NCBI RefSeq assembly: GCF_900167125.1
Contig: NZ_FUYC01000002.1
Coordinates: 1 to 64,000, forward strand
Source of the DNA: Paucidesulfovibrio gracilis DSM 16080
Lineage (GTDB): Bacteria; Desulfobacterota; Desulfovibrionia; Desulfovibrionales; Desulfovibrionaceae
Direction: 5' to 3'
Length of the DNA stretch: 64,000 bases
The translations under genes were made by a program, and so were the position numbers. Numbering within the stretch: the first letter of the stretch is position 1; the number at the start of each line of letters is the position of its first letter. Below are positions 35,468 through 46,804 of the stretch, one piece after another. The notes under the pieces are model-generated. The model saw nothing but the letters and a program-made list of their open reading frames with translations, had not been told where the DNA came from and searched no databases.

Positions 35468-36811
35468 ATGATGATGGAAACCGTGACGGAAACCGCGCGG
35501 CATGCCGTGCCGCTGCTGCCCGGCGGGACAACGTTTTTGGACCGCGTCCAGGAGGCGTTGCCCGAGGGAGCGAATCTGTCCATGTGTCTGACCTGCGGGC
35601 TGTGCTCCTCGGGCTGTCCGGCGTCCGGGCTGCATGACATGGACCCGCGCAAATTCCTACGGCTGTGCGCCTGGGGGCAGGAGGAGGAAGTCACCTCCAC
35701 GCCCTGGGTCTGGATGTGTACCATGTGTTTTCGCTGCAAGGTCGTTTGTCCGATGGATGTGAATATCCCTATGCTTGTGTACGAGGCCAGGGCTTCCTGG
35801 GCCAGGGATGCCAAGCCAAAGGGAATCATTGGATCCTGCGACCAGGGATTGCGGACCATGGGTGCCAGCGCCGTGGGCATTTCCAGTGAGGACTTCCGAT
35901 TTGTGGTGGAGGATGTCCTGGAGGAAGTGCATGAAACGCAGCCCGGCTGGGAGGAGTTGCGTGCTCCCATCGACAGGAAGGGAGCGACCTTCTGCGTGAA
36001 CCAGAATTCGCGGGAACCCGTGCAGGAACCTGAGGAGATGGTGCCGCTTTGGAAGATACTGCATCTTGCCGGGGTGGACTGGACGTATGGAAGCCATGGT
36101 TGGGGAGCCGAAAATTACTGCATGTTTGCCGCCGAGGACGAGCATTGGCGCGCCGTGCTCCAAAAGCAGGTGGACGGCGTCCGCGAGTTGGATTGCACCT
36201 CCTGGGTAAACATCGAATGCGGCCATTCGTTTTATTCCATTTGGGCCGGGCTGCAACGCTTCGGCATCAATCCCGGCGTGGATTTCGATCACATCGTGCG
36301 TTGGTACGCCCGTTGGATTCGTTCCGGGCGGCTTGCTCCCTCAAGTGATTGGAATCGTGATCTCGGGGTGAAGTTTACGGTGCAGGATCCCTGCATGGCG
36401 GTTCGTAAATCCCAGGGGACGGCCTTTGCCGACGACTTGCGCTACGTAGTGCGCCGGTGCGTGGGAGACGACAACTTTGTGGATATGGTCCCCAACGGGG
36501 TGAACAATTATTGCTGTGGCGGAGGAGGTGGGTTCCTGCAATCCGGGTACAAAGATGCCCGCCGGAAATATGGCGAGTTCAAGGCCCGCCAGATACTGGG
36601 AACCGGAGCCGACTACGTGATTACGCCCTGCCATAATTGCCATGCCCAGATTGAGGATTTGTCCGCCGAACGGAACCATGCCTGGAACACCGTGCATCTG
36701 TGGACCATTCTTTGCCTCAGTCTCGGGGTGCTGGCGGCGTCGGAACGAACCTATCTCGGACCGGATTTGGCAGAGGTCGCTCTGCCGGGAAGCAACGGAG
36801 GAGAATCATGA
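35468..36811 (+). CDS. HdrD-like (Fe-S)-binding protein, Cys form, about 447 aa
   Basis: Two N-terminal 4Fe-4S motifs (CLTCGLCSSGCP from about residue 39 and CTMCFRCKVVCP) precede an HdrD/DsrK/GlpC-like module. The C-terminal CCG domain is intact (VQDPC, NNYCCGGGGGF, CHNCH). The first Cys module is unusual, with YCMF and a conserved NIECGHSF (Cys251), the residue replaced by TGA in the next gene. Three ATG codons lie in a row at 35468, 35471 and 35474; spacing from GAGAGG favours the third. It overlaps the next gene by ATGA. The role is probably cytosolic disulfide or thiol redox linked to HdrABC. Confidence 0.88.
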   Translation: MMMETVTETARHAVPLLPGGTTFLDRVQEALPEGANLSMCLTCGLCSSGCPASGLHDMDPRKFLRLCAWGQEEEVTSTPWVWMCTMCFRCKVVCPMDVNIPMLVYEARASWARDAKPKGIIGSCDQGLRTMGASAVGISSEDFRFVVEDVLEEVHETQPGWEELRAPIDRKGATFCVNQNSREPVQEPEEMVPLWKILHLAGVDWTYGSHGWGAENYCMFAAEDEHWRAVLQKQVDGVRELDCTSWVNIECGHSFYSIWAGLQRFGINPGVDFDHIVRWYARWIRSGRLAPSSDWNRDLGVKFTVQDPCMAVRKSQGTAFADDLRYVVRRCVGDDNFVDMVPNGVNNYCCGGGGGFLQSGYKDARRKYGEFKARQILGTGADYVITPCHNCHAQIEDLSAERNHAWNTVHLWTILCLSLGVLAASERTYLGPDLAEVALPGSNGGES

Positions 36812-38124
36812 CGGAAACCATGACGGAAACCACGCGGGATGCCGCGCCGCTGCTGCCCGGCGGGGGCGCGTTTCTGGATCGTGTGGAGGGGGTGCTGCCC
36901 GAGGGGGCGAATCTGTCCATGTGCCTGACCTGCGGGTTGTGCGCTTCGGGTTGCCCGGCATCCGGGCTGCATGACATGGACCCGCGCAAATTCCTGCGGC
37001 TGTGCGCCTGGGGGCAGGAGGAGGAAGTCACCTCCACGCCCTGGGTATGGATGTGCACGATGTGTCAGCGCTGTGTGTACGCCTGTCCCATGCATATCGA
37101 CATCCCGAGGCTGATTTACGAGGTGCGGTCCACATGGCCGCGTGATACCCGGCCCAAGGGGATTCTCGGCTCCTGCGAACAGGCTTTGAGCACGGAGGGT
37201 AACTCCGCCATGGGTGCGCGGAGCGAGGATTTCAAGTTCGTGGTGGAGGATATCCTGGAGGAAGTGCATGAAGACCAGCCGGACTGGAAGGATCTGGCGG
37301 TGTACTTCAATCGCGAGGGGGCGAAATATTGCCTGAACCAAAACTCCCGCGAACCCGTGACCGAGCCGGACGAAATGGTGCCGCTTTGGAAGATTCTGCA
37401 CACCGTGGGCGCGGACTGGACCTATTCCACCAAGGGCTGGGCCGCTGAGAACTATTGCATGTTCCTGGCGGACGACGAAGCCTGGGAAACCGTGGTGCGT
37501 AACAAGGTGGCCGCTGTGGAGGCGCTGGGCTGCCAATACTGGCTGAACACGGAGTGAGGACACGAAATGTACGCGGTCCGGGCCGGACTGCAAAAATTCG
37601 GGATCACTCCCAAGTTCGAGATCGAGAGCATCATTCGGCTGTATGCCCGCTGGATTCGCGAGGGTCGGCTGCCGGTCAGTTCGGATTGGAACAAGGATCT
37701 GGGCGTGACCTTCACGGTCCAGGATCCCTGCCAGTTGGTGCGTAAGTCCTTCCTGGACCCCGTGGCCGAGGACTTGCGGTTCGTGGTTCGCTCCGTGGTG
37801 GGCGAGGAACATTTCATCGACATGGTGCCGAACCGTTCCAACAATTATTGTTGCGGTGGCGGCGGCGGGTACCTCCAGTCCGGATACACGGACGAGCGGC
37901 GCAAGTATGGGGATCGCAAGTTGCGGCAGATTCTGGAAACCGGAGCAGACTACTGCATCGCGCCTTGCCACAACTGTCATTCCCAGATTCATGACCTTTC
38001 CGAAACATCTGGCCGCCATTTTCCGGTGGTGCATCTGTGGACCCTGATTTGTTTGTCCATGGGCTGCCTGGGCGAAAATGAGCGAGGATATCTCGGGGAG
38101 GATTTGGCGGAACTTGGGTTATAG
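36808..38124 (+). CDS. HdrD-like Fe-S protein, probable selenoprotein (in-frame TGA at 37555-37557), 438 aa
   Basis: A tandem paralog of the preceding gene, read through a single TGA at codon 250. Before the TGA the frame has CLTCGLCASGCP, CTMCQRCVYACP and ends YWLNTE. After it the same frame continues GHEMYAVRAGLQKFG, then the full CCG domain (VQDPC, NNYCCGGGGGY, CHNCH). The paralog reads NIE-C-GHSFYSIWAGLQRFG, so the TGA falls exactly on the conserved Cys. Both sides stay aligned with no frameshift, and a SECIS-like hairpin follows at 37573-37591. Selenocysteine is the simplest reading. Standard tools would call 36808-37557 and 37567-38124 as separate genes. The start ATG 36808 has GGAGGA upstream. 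A nonsense mutation with GAGG-driven restart at 37567 is the alternative. Confidence 0.85.
37573..37591 (+). promoter_or_regulatory. SECIS-like hairpin after the in-frame TGA
   Basis: GCGGTCCG (37573-37580) pairs with CGGACTGC (37584-37591), eight pairs including one G-U, closing a GGC loop (37581-37583). The loop begins 23 bases after the TGA, and its first base is G. Bacterial SECIS models, as I recall them, ask for an apical loop about 16-37 bases downstream with a G in the first two loop positions, so this fits. Confidence 0.7.
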
Positions 38125-39311: not shown

Positions 39312-39643
39312 TCCCGGGCGCAGAGTCTTTGTTTTTTTGCCGCAATAACAAATCCTGAAAATGATTGCGTTCGTTGGCGCACAGCGGAATATCCCGAGCC
39401 GATATTTTCTTTTGGCACGCGCACGGGCCAAAATGGTTGGCTTTGGGTGACGATATCGTTTTTCGAAACGGATTGTCGGGCTATTTATGGAACCGGGTGT
39501 TCCGATTGTTTCTTCACGTTTGGTATGAACGAGAGAATCCCCTCCTTGAAGGCACGAGGGCGCCAATACCTTTGGCTGTGGAAGAGGGGCAAAGTGCAAT
39601 GTGTTGGTGATGGTATTCCCCCTTGTCAAAAGACATTCAATTC
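39312..39643. other. Intergenic region upstream of metE, no gene seen
   Basis: An AT-rich 330-base spacer. A T-run at 39329-39338 follows the binding-protein gene and may terminate it, though the stem is weak. A run of open codons on the plus strand near 39365-39610 has no homology I recognise and no ribosome site, so I do not call it. Confidence 0.4.
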
Positions 39644-39667
39644 TATATTCTTAAATCTTGATATACT
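39644..39667 (+). promoter_or_regulatory. Probable SahR operator overlapping the metE -10 element
   Basis: TATAT (39644-39648), nine bases, then TTGATA (39658-39663). The same TATAT-N9-TTGATA arrangement occurs in the operator just before the SahR-like gene (44351-44370). A -10-like TATACT at 39662-39667 overlaps the right half. Binding here would block metE transcription before the riboswitch is made. Confidence 0.6.
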
Positions 39668-39671
39668 AATG

Positions 39672-39802
39672 TTGGCAAGAAACGGAAAGCGGTGAAAAGC
39701 CGCTGCGGACGCGCCGCTGTAACCGGCACAACCCGTTGATGACCACCGAAAGGGAAGGGAATCAACATCTTGGGGCCGGGAGCCAGAAGACGTCTTGCCG
39801 GA
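39672..39802 (+). ncRNA. Cobalamin riboswitch upstream of metE
   Basis: Conserved elements in order: GCGGTGAAAAGCCGCTGCGG, CGCCGCTGTAACCGG, GATGACCACC, AAGGGAAGG, and the B12 box AGCCAGAAGACGTCTTGCC (39781-39799). P1 is GGCAAGA (39674-39680) with TCTTGCC (39793-39799). Downstream, GCAAAAC and GTTTTGC (about 39804-39831) form a further hairpin that may be the expression platform. Cobalamin binding should lower MetE synthesis, since the B12-dependent MetH can replace it. Confidence 0.93.
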
Positions 39803-39917
39803 GTGCAAAACCCCCGGGCACTGTTTTGCGGTGGTTGCTTTGGGGCAACGCAGGGTTCTCCTCTGTTGTCTTTGGGGTTTTGCTCTTTGTCGTCAACCCA
39901 TGAAACATGGAGCAGAC

Positions 39918-42188
39918 ATGAACGCGCACGTACTGGGATTCCCGAGGATCGGACTCGGGCGGGAACTCAAATGGACTCTTGAATCCTATTGGCGGGGAGA
40001 GGCTTCCCTTGAAGAGCTTTTGTCAACGGCCGAGAGACTCAAGAGGCGGCATTGGCAAGTGCAGATGCAGGCCGGGCTTGACCTTCTCCCGGTGGGAGAT
40101 TTCTCGCTGTATGACCATGTGTTGGATACCGTTGCCATGGTCGGGGCGGTGCCGGAACGGTTTTGCCGAAACTCCGCCGAGACGGGATGCGCTGCGTATT
40201 TCGCCATGGCGCGTGGAGAGGCCCGTTCTTCGATTCCGGCCATGGAGATGACCAAATGGTTCGACACCAATTATCATTATATTGTCCCGGAATTCACCAA
40301 TGACCTGAGGTTTCGCAAGGACGCATCGAGACTCCTCCAGGACGTGCGGACCGTTAAGGAACTCGGTGGCACGGCAAAGCCCGTGCTGGTTGGTCCGATT
40401 ACCTTCCTGCTGTTGGGAAAGTCCATGGATGGAAGCAGTCCCTGGATCCATTTGGAACGCTTGGTGGACGTATATTCCGATATCCTGAAGGACATCTCCG
40501 GGGAGTGTCCGTGGATTCAAATCGACGAGCCGGTTCTGTGCAGTGATTTGTCTCCAAAGGCGCACCAGGAATTTCGATACGCCTACGAAAGCTTTGCCGG
40601 TGCCAAGGGCCATGCCCGTATCCTGCTCACCTCGTATTTCGGTCCGCTGGGGGACAATTTGCCGCTTGCAGCGAGTCTGCCCGTTGACGGGCTGCATCTG
40701 GACCTTGTCAGGGGGGCGGAGCAGCTGCCTGCCGCGCTTGAAGCCATGCCTTCCGAACAGGTTGTGTCGCTTGGTCTGGTGGACGGCAGGAACATCTGGC
40801 GCGCCGATCTTGATGCGGCCGCTGAATGCATCAATGCCGCTAAGCAGCGGGGCAGTGAATCGAAGATCATGCTAGGGACGAGTTGTTCCCTGCTGCATTG
40901 CCCGGTGGATGTGGCTCTGGAAACGGATATGGACCCCTCCATACGCGAGTGGATGGCCTTTGCGGTGCAAAAATGCGACGAGGTGGCGGCATTGGCGCAT
41001 TTTGCGGAAACGGGCGAACGCAATTCTCTTTTTGCGAAAAATCGTAAGGCATTGCAGGCACGAGCGGCAAATCCATGCGCCGTTGATAAGAGCGTTCGTG
41101 CTCGTGTCGATTCACTCACTCCAAAGCACTACGAACGCGGGTCCGTTTTTGCGGAGCGAACGAAAGTGCAATCCGTCCGCCGGCAATTGCCGCTCTTCCC
41201 CACAACAACGATCGGGTCGTTCCCCCAAACCCCGGAAATCCGATCCATCAGGCTTGGCCATAAAAAAGGGGAATGGACAACAGAAGAGTATGTCGCGGCC
41301 ATGAAGAATCAGATTGCCGAAGCCGTGGCCAGGCAGGAGGAACTGGGGCTGGATGTGCTTGTGCATGGCGAACCGGAGCGCAACGATATGGTGGAATACT
41401 TCGGACAACAACTGAATGGCTTTTGCTTTACGTCCCAGGGATGGGTGCAAAGCTATGGCAGTCGCTGCGTAAAGCCGCCGGTGATTTTTGGCGACGTGTC
41501 CCGCCCTCAGGCCATGACCGTGGATTGGGCGCGGTATGCCCAAAGCCTGACCCCAAAACCCATGAAAGGCATGCTGACAGGGCCGGTGACCATTCTGTGC
41601 TGGAGTTTCGTTCGCAACGATATTCCGCGAAGCGAGGTGTGCCGACAGATCGCCCTTGCGATTCGTGATGAGGTGTTGGATCTTGAATCCGCTGGATTGT
41701 CCATTATCCAGATCGACGAGGCCGCCTTGCGTGAGGGGCTGCCGTTGCGAGCGGCAGACCATGAGGCGTATCTGCGTTGGGCTGTGGATTGTTTCCGGCT
41801 GACGGCGGCCGGTGTTCGGGATGAGACGCAGATTCATTCCCATATGTGCTACAGCGAGTTCAACGCCATTATGGAATGGATCGCCCAAATGGATGCGGAC
41901 GTGATCAGCATTGAAGCCAGCCGGAGCGGAATGGCCCTCTTGGAGGCGTTTCGGGCGGTTTCGTATCCCGCGGACGTTGGCCCTGGTGTGTACGACATTC
42001 ACAGCCCACGGGTGCCAAGTGAGGAGGAGATCCACGGGCTGCTGAAAAAGGCGTTGGAGGTTGTGGCTCCCGAGCGGCTTTGGGTCAATCCGGATTGCGG
42101 TCTGAAAACGAGAGGGTGGCCGGAAACAATCGCATCATTGAAGAATCTGGTGGCTGCCGCAAAGCGGTTGCGCCGGGAATACACCTAG
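39918..42188 (+). CDS. metE: Cobalamin-independent methionine synthase, 756 aa
   Basis: Transfers the methyl group of 5-methyltetrahydropteroyl-triglutamate to homocysteine. Both (beta/alpha)8 halves are present. Zinc ligands are in IHSHMCYSEF (His and Cys) and VNPDCGLKTR (Cys727, matching E. coli Cys726). FPRIGLGRELKW at the N-terminus is typical. ATG 39918 is chosen by GGAG five bases upstream and the family start. It is controlled by the B12 riboswitch and the probable SahR site upstream. It links with sahR-ahcY at 44-47 kb in the methionine cycle. Confidence 0.97.
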   Translation: MNAHVLGFPRIGLGRELKWTLESYWRGEASLEELLSTAERLKRRHWQVQMQAGLDLLPVGDFSLYDHVLDTVAMVGAVPERFCRNSAETGCAAYFAMARGEARSSIPAMEMTKWFDTNYHYIVPEFTNDLRFRKDASRLLQDVRTVKELGGTAKPVLVGPITFLLLGKSMDGSSPWIHLERLVDVYSDILKDISGECPWIQIDEPVLCSDLSPKAHQEFRYAYESFAGAKGHARILLTSYFGPLGDNLPLAASLPVDGLHLDLVRGAEQLPAALEAMPSEQVVSLGLVDGRNIWRADLDAAAECINAAKQRGSESKIMLGTSCSLLHCPVDVALETDMDPSIREWMAFAVQKCDEVAALAHFAETGERNSLFAKNRKALQARAANPCAVDKSVRARVDSLTPKHYERGSVFAERTKVQSVRRQLPLFPTTTIGSFPQTPEIRSIRLGHKKGEWTTEEYVAAMKNQIAEAVARQEELGLDVLVHGEPERNDMVEYFGQQLNGFCFTSQGWVQSYGSRCVKPPVIFGDVSRPQAMTVDWARYAQSLTPKPMKGMLTGPVTILCWSFVRNDIPRSEVCRQIALAIRDEVLDLESAGLSIIQIDEAALREGLPLRAADHEAYLRWAVDCFRLTAAGVRDETQIHSHMCYSEFNAIMEWIAQMDADVISIEASRSGMALLEAFRAVSYPADVGPGVYDIHSPRVPSEEEIHGLLKKALEVVAPERLWVNPDCGLKTRGWPETIASLKNLVAAAKRLRREYT

Positions 42189-44194: not shown

Positions 44195-44346
44195 GGTCGC
44201 TCCTTTTGGTGTCGGCGGAGTATAAAAAACGTCGGAATAATCCGACTGCGCCGCACCAACCAAAAAAATATGATACCCTGACCGGTAGCGGTCTGCAAGC
44301 GAAAGCATGGGACTTGACGTGTCCGGGGTCTTGCCGTAAAACGCGA

Positions 44347-44374
44347 TTCGTATATCAGCATATATTGATACGAA
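44347..44374. promoter_or_regulatory. Palindromic operator before sahR-ahcY
   Basis: TTCGTAT (44347-44353) and ATACGAA (44368-44374) are perfect arms of a 28-base inverted repeat, with inner TATCA/TGATA symmetry. It lies 17 bases before the SahR-like start and contains the TATAT-N9-TTGATA core also found before metE. Likely autoregulation and control of ahcY. Confidence 0.78.

Positions 44375-44391: not shown

Positions 44392-46804
<2,413 letters not shown>

Follow-up and report, generated by a model that had tools for sequence, protein, structure and literature searches.

The metE gene of the sulfate-reducer-type bacterium Paucidesulfovibrio gracilis DSM 16080 raises the question of how many signals decide when the B12-independent methionine synthase is made. 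The preliminary description of this locus had proposed two layers of control, an operator for the repressor SahR and a cobalamin riboswitch, so that metE would be shut by low S-adenosylhomocysteine (SAH), a by-product of methylation, or by sufficient B12. This logic fits SahR being an SAH-responsive regulator (PMC4239095), and sequence comparison supports it overall. Very likely, the two layers act in series and yield the output SAH AND NOT B12.

The analysed window is a stretch of 64,000 nucleotides (64 kb) that contains metE and, about 2 kb beyond its end, the sahR-ahcY operon, with ahcY downstream of sahR (Table 1). In the SahR protein, an ArsR-type helix-turn-helix precedes a SAM-methyltransferase-like domain; profile matches find both of these expected domains.

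Table 1. Features of the metE and sahR-ahcY loci in the window
Feature	Position	Strand	Basis
Predicted metE -35 element, TTGTCA	39623..39628	+	only promoter-like hit in 39500-39960
Cobalamin riboswitch aptamer	39642..39811	+	RF00174, 55.5 bits (cut-off 31.5)
Predicted SahR operator of metE, ATATTCTTAAATCTTGATAT	39645..39664	+	matrix score 16.8; position conserved in relatives
Predicted metE -10 element, TATTCT, within the operator left half	39646..39651	+	promoter prediction; geometry of relatives
Expression platform	39805..39917	+	predicted folds
metE, B12-independent methionine synthase	39918..42188	+	TIGR01371, 1060 bits (cut-off 930)
Predicted sahR promoter, TTGACG-17-TAAAAC	44314..44342	+	read from sequence
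Predicted SahR operator of sahR-ahcY, ATATCAGCATATATTGATAC	44352..44371	+	matrix score 29.7, best in the window
sahR	44392..45303	+	PF01022 at 12-57, PF08241 at 149-243
ahcY, SAH hydrolase	45371..46804	+	TIGR00936, 637 bits

The pattern TATAT-N9-TTGATA had been noted at metE (39644-39663) and again before sahR (44351-44370), and these are indeed its two exact matches in the window. With up to two mismatches, it occurs seven times in the window against 1.3 expected. The pattern is real and marks a predicted SahR site, but it is imprecise, as it captures only a fragment of a 20-bp palindrome close to ATATCAAGATATCTTGATAT. This palindrome was derived solely from the upstream regions of sahR in 30 genomes, with no metE sequence included, and agrees with the SahR motif published as a 20-bp palindrome (PMC4239095). 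TATAT-N9-TTGATA was dropped as the operator definition because it also catches half-sites. A matrix of the palindrome was applied instead to the 64-kb window, 40 metE leaders, selected loci, and a 135-kb background that is enriched for pattern matches and hence overstates the background.

In the window, the metE site ranks second to the sahR-ahcY site, which is itself one of the 30 sites used in matrix building; the best unrelated site scores 7.8. Of the 20 palindrome positions, the metE site agrees at 15; its right half is intact, whereas its left half is degenerate. When the 605-bp leader of metE is subjected to dinucleotide shuffling, a best score this high arises with a probability of 0.0005. 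The score is not unique in the genome, as an unrelated-looking site at C3:9882-9901 is higher at 20.7. This SahR-like site lies before a hemerythrin-like gene and overlaps the coding end of a leuB-like gene; it was set aside as a probable chance match. Despite its weak left half, the metE site carries the palindrome common to sahR promoters, and the comparison confirms its assignment as a predicted SahR operator.

The operator had been said to overlap the -10 region of metE, and the promoter geometry agrees. TTGTCA-17-TATTCT is the sole sigma-70-like promoter in 39500-39960, and its geometry recurs in relatives. When 13 metE leaders that carry a site are compared, agreement with TTGACA is highest 22 bases ahead of the site start (4.2 of 6 positions, compared with a mean of 1.5 elsewhere), and most of the 13 relatives have a -35-like hexamer at that distance. 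The spacing between the -35 box and the site is thus constant, and the left half of the operator is therefore predicted to be the -10 element, with a spacer of 17 bases. Transcription would start near 39658, inside the operator and shortly ahead of where the aptamer begins to pair. Competing demands of the -10 element and the operator may have caused the degenerate left half at metE.

At sahR, unlike at metE, the -10 element precedes the operator, and blockage would accordingly take a slightly different form at each promoter. The upstream regions of sahR in relatives contain promoter-like sequences comparable to that in Table 1, and no -35 element was found at a fixed position relative to the site in these promoters.

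The cobalamin riboswitch had been placed directly after the operator, as the RF00174 match bears out. The 5' end of the match covers the operator, and the paired part begins near 39674 in the predicted fold. The conserved core motifs GCCGCUGUAA and GAGCCAGAAGAC are both present. Downstream of the aptamer, two mutually exclusive pairings are predicted in the expression platform. One joins GCAAAACCCC (39805-39814) with GGGGTTTTGC (39874-39883) and would free the Shine-Dalgarno region; the other joins TTTTGCTC (39878-39885) with the Shine-Dalgarno region GGAGCAGA (39909-39916) and would hide it. The predicted switch hairpins have weak z-scores and folding energies not clearly better than those of shuffles, so translational control of metE by the riboswitch is a prediction. 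Transcription termination, a variant of the two-layer reading rather than an alternative to it, is unlikely to be the mode of action. Two weak terminator-like matches (39819-39833 and 39850-39866) would suit it, but the metE leader lacks a strong hairpin with a U-run behind it, and the Shine-Dalgarno region is able to pair.

The distribution of metE is patchy; the gene is present in 42 of 149 genomes, including that of the window. Forty metE leaders were scored, again with the window's own included, 33 from genomes with SahR and seven from genomes without it. A site scoring at least 16.8 is found in 16 of the 33 leaders and in none of the seven, which do not exceed 10.5 (Fisher P = 0.019, with related genomes treated as independent). 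The remaining 17 leaders from SahR genomes have no such site. In 15 of the 16 leaders with a site, a cobalamin aptamer follows, 12 being above the Rfam cut-off and three read by eye. Those 12 leaders, in which the riboswitch comes directly after the site, represent eight genera and two families.

Three leaders from one genus (G039, G066, and G084) were rejected as cases of a site without a riboswitch. On reading, they keep the aptamer core AAGGGAAACGGAAACCGGTGCGAATCCGG ... CAGTCGGAAGACGTC and contain a long GC-rich insertion, and they fall below the Rfam cut-off. In G077, the operator lies 56 bases before metE and is accompanied by a few aptamer-like bases (AAACGGAA) with no riboswitch, an apparent loss of the riboswitch with the operator retained. 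Many other relatives possess a metE riboswitch without an operator. The two modules therefore occur both separately and together. Sequence comparison establishes the operator, promoter geometry, and aptamer at metE, their order, and their conservation, and it indicates conservation of the stacked layout across at least eight genera.

A search for further sites near met genes had been suggested, and the 3.18-Mb genome contains a third and last exact match to TATAT-N9-TTGATA in addition to those at metE and sahR. It lies at C17:41850, and the gene directly behind it reads as metH by translation. The metH site has a matrix score of 23.1, and its left half also departs from the palindrome. Among 15 single-mismatch matches in the genome, the only one tied to a met gene is at C14:25191, upstream of a metF copy with a weak site (15.7). 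No site was found by the matrix at the metF copy on C3 (best 5.1) or at metK (best -9.6). RF00174 matches the genome three times, at metE, before an NrdD-like gene on C5, and at a FecCD-like permease locus on C3 that was read by eye; none is at metH. The C5 riboswitch (C5:77496-77672) precedes an NrdD-like anaerobic ribonucleotide reductase, another B12-independent isozyme. The same arrangement, a B12 element before a B12-independent ribonucleotide reductase, has been reported for D. vulgaris (PMC545781).

We infer SahR binding, its release by SAH, the translational mechanism, and the output of the gate as follows. At low SAH, SahR would occupy the metE operator, whose left half is the predicted -10 element, and block initiation. 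In work by Novichkov et al. from 2014, SAH is said to release SahR from DNA. When SAH rises, SahR would leave, and transcription would begin within the operator, giving a nascent RNA that starts with the cobalamin aptamer. If B12 is plentiful, this RNA would shut metE, most probably by masking its ribosome-binding site, and metE would be expressed only under high SAH combined with low B12. The B12 arm agrees with the isozyme switch already known for metE and metH. Because metH would be under the SahR layer alone, with no B12 switch, SahR would set the total homocysteine methylation and the riboswitch would pick the isozyme.

Two other readings would take the operator out of this scheme. It may be that metE in this strain is governed by the riboswitch alone, its SahR site having decayed to a vestige of the conserved operator with an eroded left half. 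The site does have the lowest score among the 16 metE sites, its left half reads TATTC where the palindrome has TATCA, and riboswitches without an operator are common in relatives. We regard this as quite improbable, since the site scores far above shuffles, has a perfect right half, and retains the promoter geometry; moreover, metH in this genome likewise has a site that departs from the palindrome in its left half, and the metF site scores 15.7. The other reading takes the AT-rich stretch as a plain -10 region that resembles the sahR operator by chance. The site does contain a -10 element, but shuffling the surrounding 90 bp of AT-rich sequence yields 16.8 with a probability of only 0.0036, and 16 leaders carry a site at their metE promoter, all of them from SahR genomes. 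A chance likeness is disfavoured by these comparative data and appears highly improbable.

Regulation of metE by SahR and its regulation by B12 have both been described before, and the two-layer control is not a new type of system. According to Leyn et al. (2014), the SahR regulon occurs in alpha-, delta-, and some gamma-proteobacteria, has sahR, ahcY, metH, and metF as core targets, and extends to metE in 29% of SahR-bearing genomes across four groups (PMC4239095). The paper also cites work that showed SahR control of SAM-cycle genes in D. alaskensis. The present regulon shares the 20-bp palindrome, the sahR/ahcY/metH/metF core, and metE as a target. It is set apart by the position of its metE operator, which extends over the -10 element and borders immediately on an aptamer, whereas B12 riboswitches are not mentioned together with SahR in the accessible part of that paper (PMC4239095). 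Conversely, a cobalamin riboswitch before metE has been reported in Oleidesulfovibrio alaskensis G20 (PMC11124144). An aptamer in the metE leader is common to both cases, but SahR is unmentioned in the report. In an incomplete literature search, no account of the two layers together on a single metE leader was found, which is weak evidence.

By analogy, the closest functional counterpart is found in Bacillus clausii and others, where SAM-I and AdoCbl riboswitches stand in tandem before metE (PMC9481103). Both arrangements would combine a methyl-cycle signal with a B12 signal, so that metE is made only if it is needed and B12 is short. In the riboswitch tandem, RNA provides both layers, which act as a NOR gate for SAM and B12 (PMC9481103), whereas here the first layer is a predicted DNA-bound repressor, the signal is SAH, and the gate would be SAH AND NOT B12. 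The metE locus would thus represent a protein-plus-RNA counterpart of the Bacillus tandem that is directly testable, and a clear piece of methyl-cycle wiring in which a demand sensor (SAH) and a cofactor-supply sensor (B12) are joined at one gene. On balance, we favour a broader reading, in which a repressor and a riboswitch in one promoter-leader unit, with the operator overlapping the -10 element and abutting the aptamer, form a conserved SAH AND NOT B12 gate in at least eight genera, with modules gained and lost separately.

A separate observation concerns two neighbouring genes elsewhere in the window (35468-36811 and 36808-38124). They encode paralogous iron-sulfur proteins that are HmcF/TmcB/DsrK-like and 67% identical. 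The second contains an in-frame TGA (37555-37557) exactly where the first has the Cys of ECGH, and the similarity extends on both sides of it. A hairpin after the TGA is not significant compared with shuffles, and selA is present in the genome. The second paralogue is either a selenoprotein or the product of a simple nonsense mutation.
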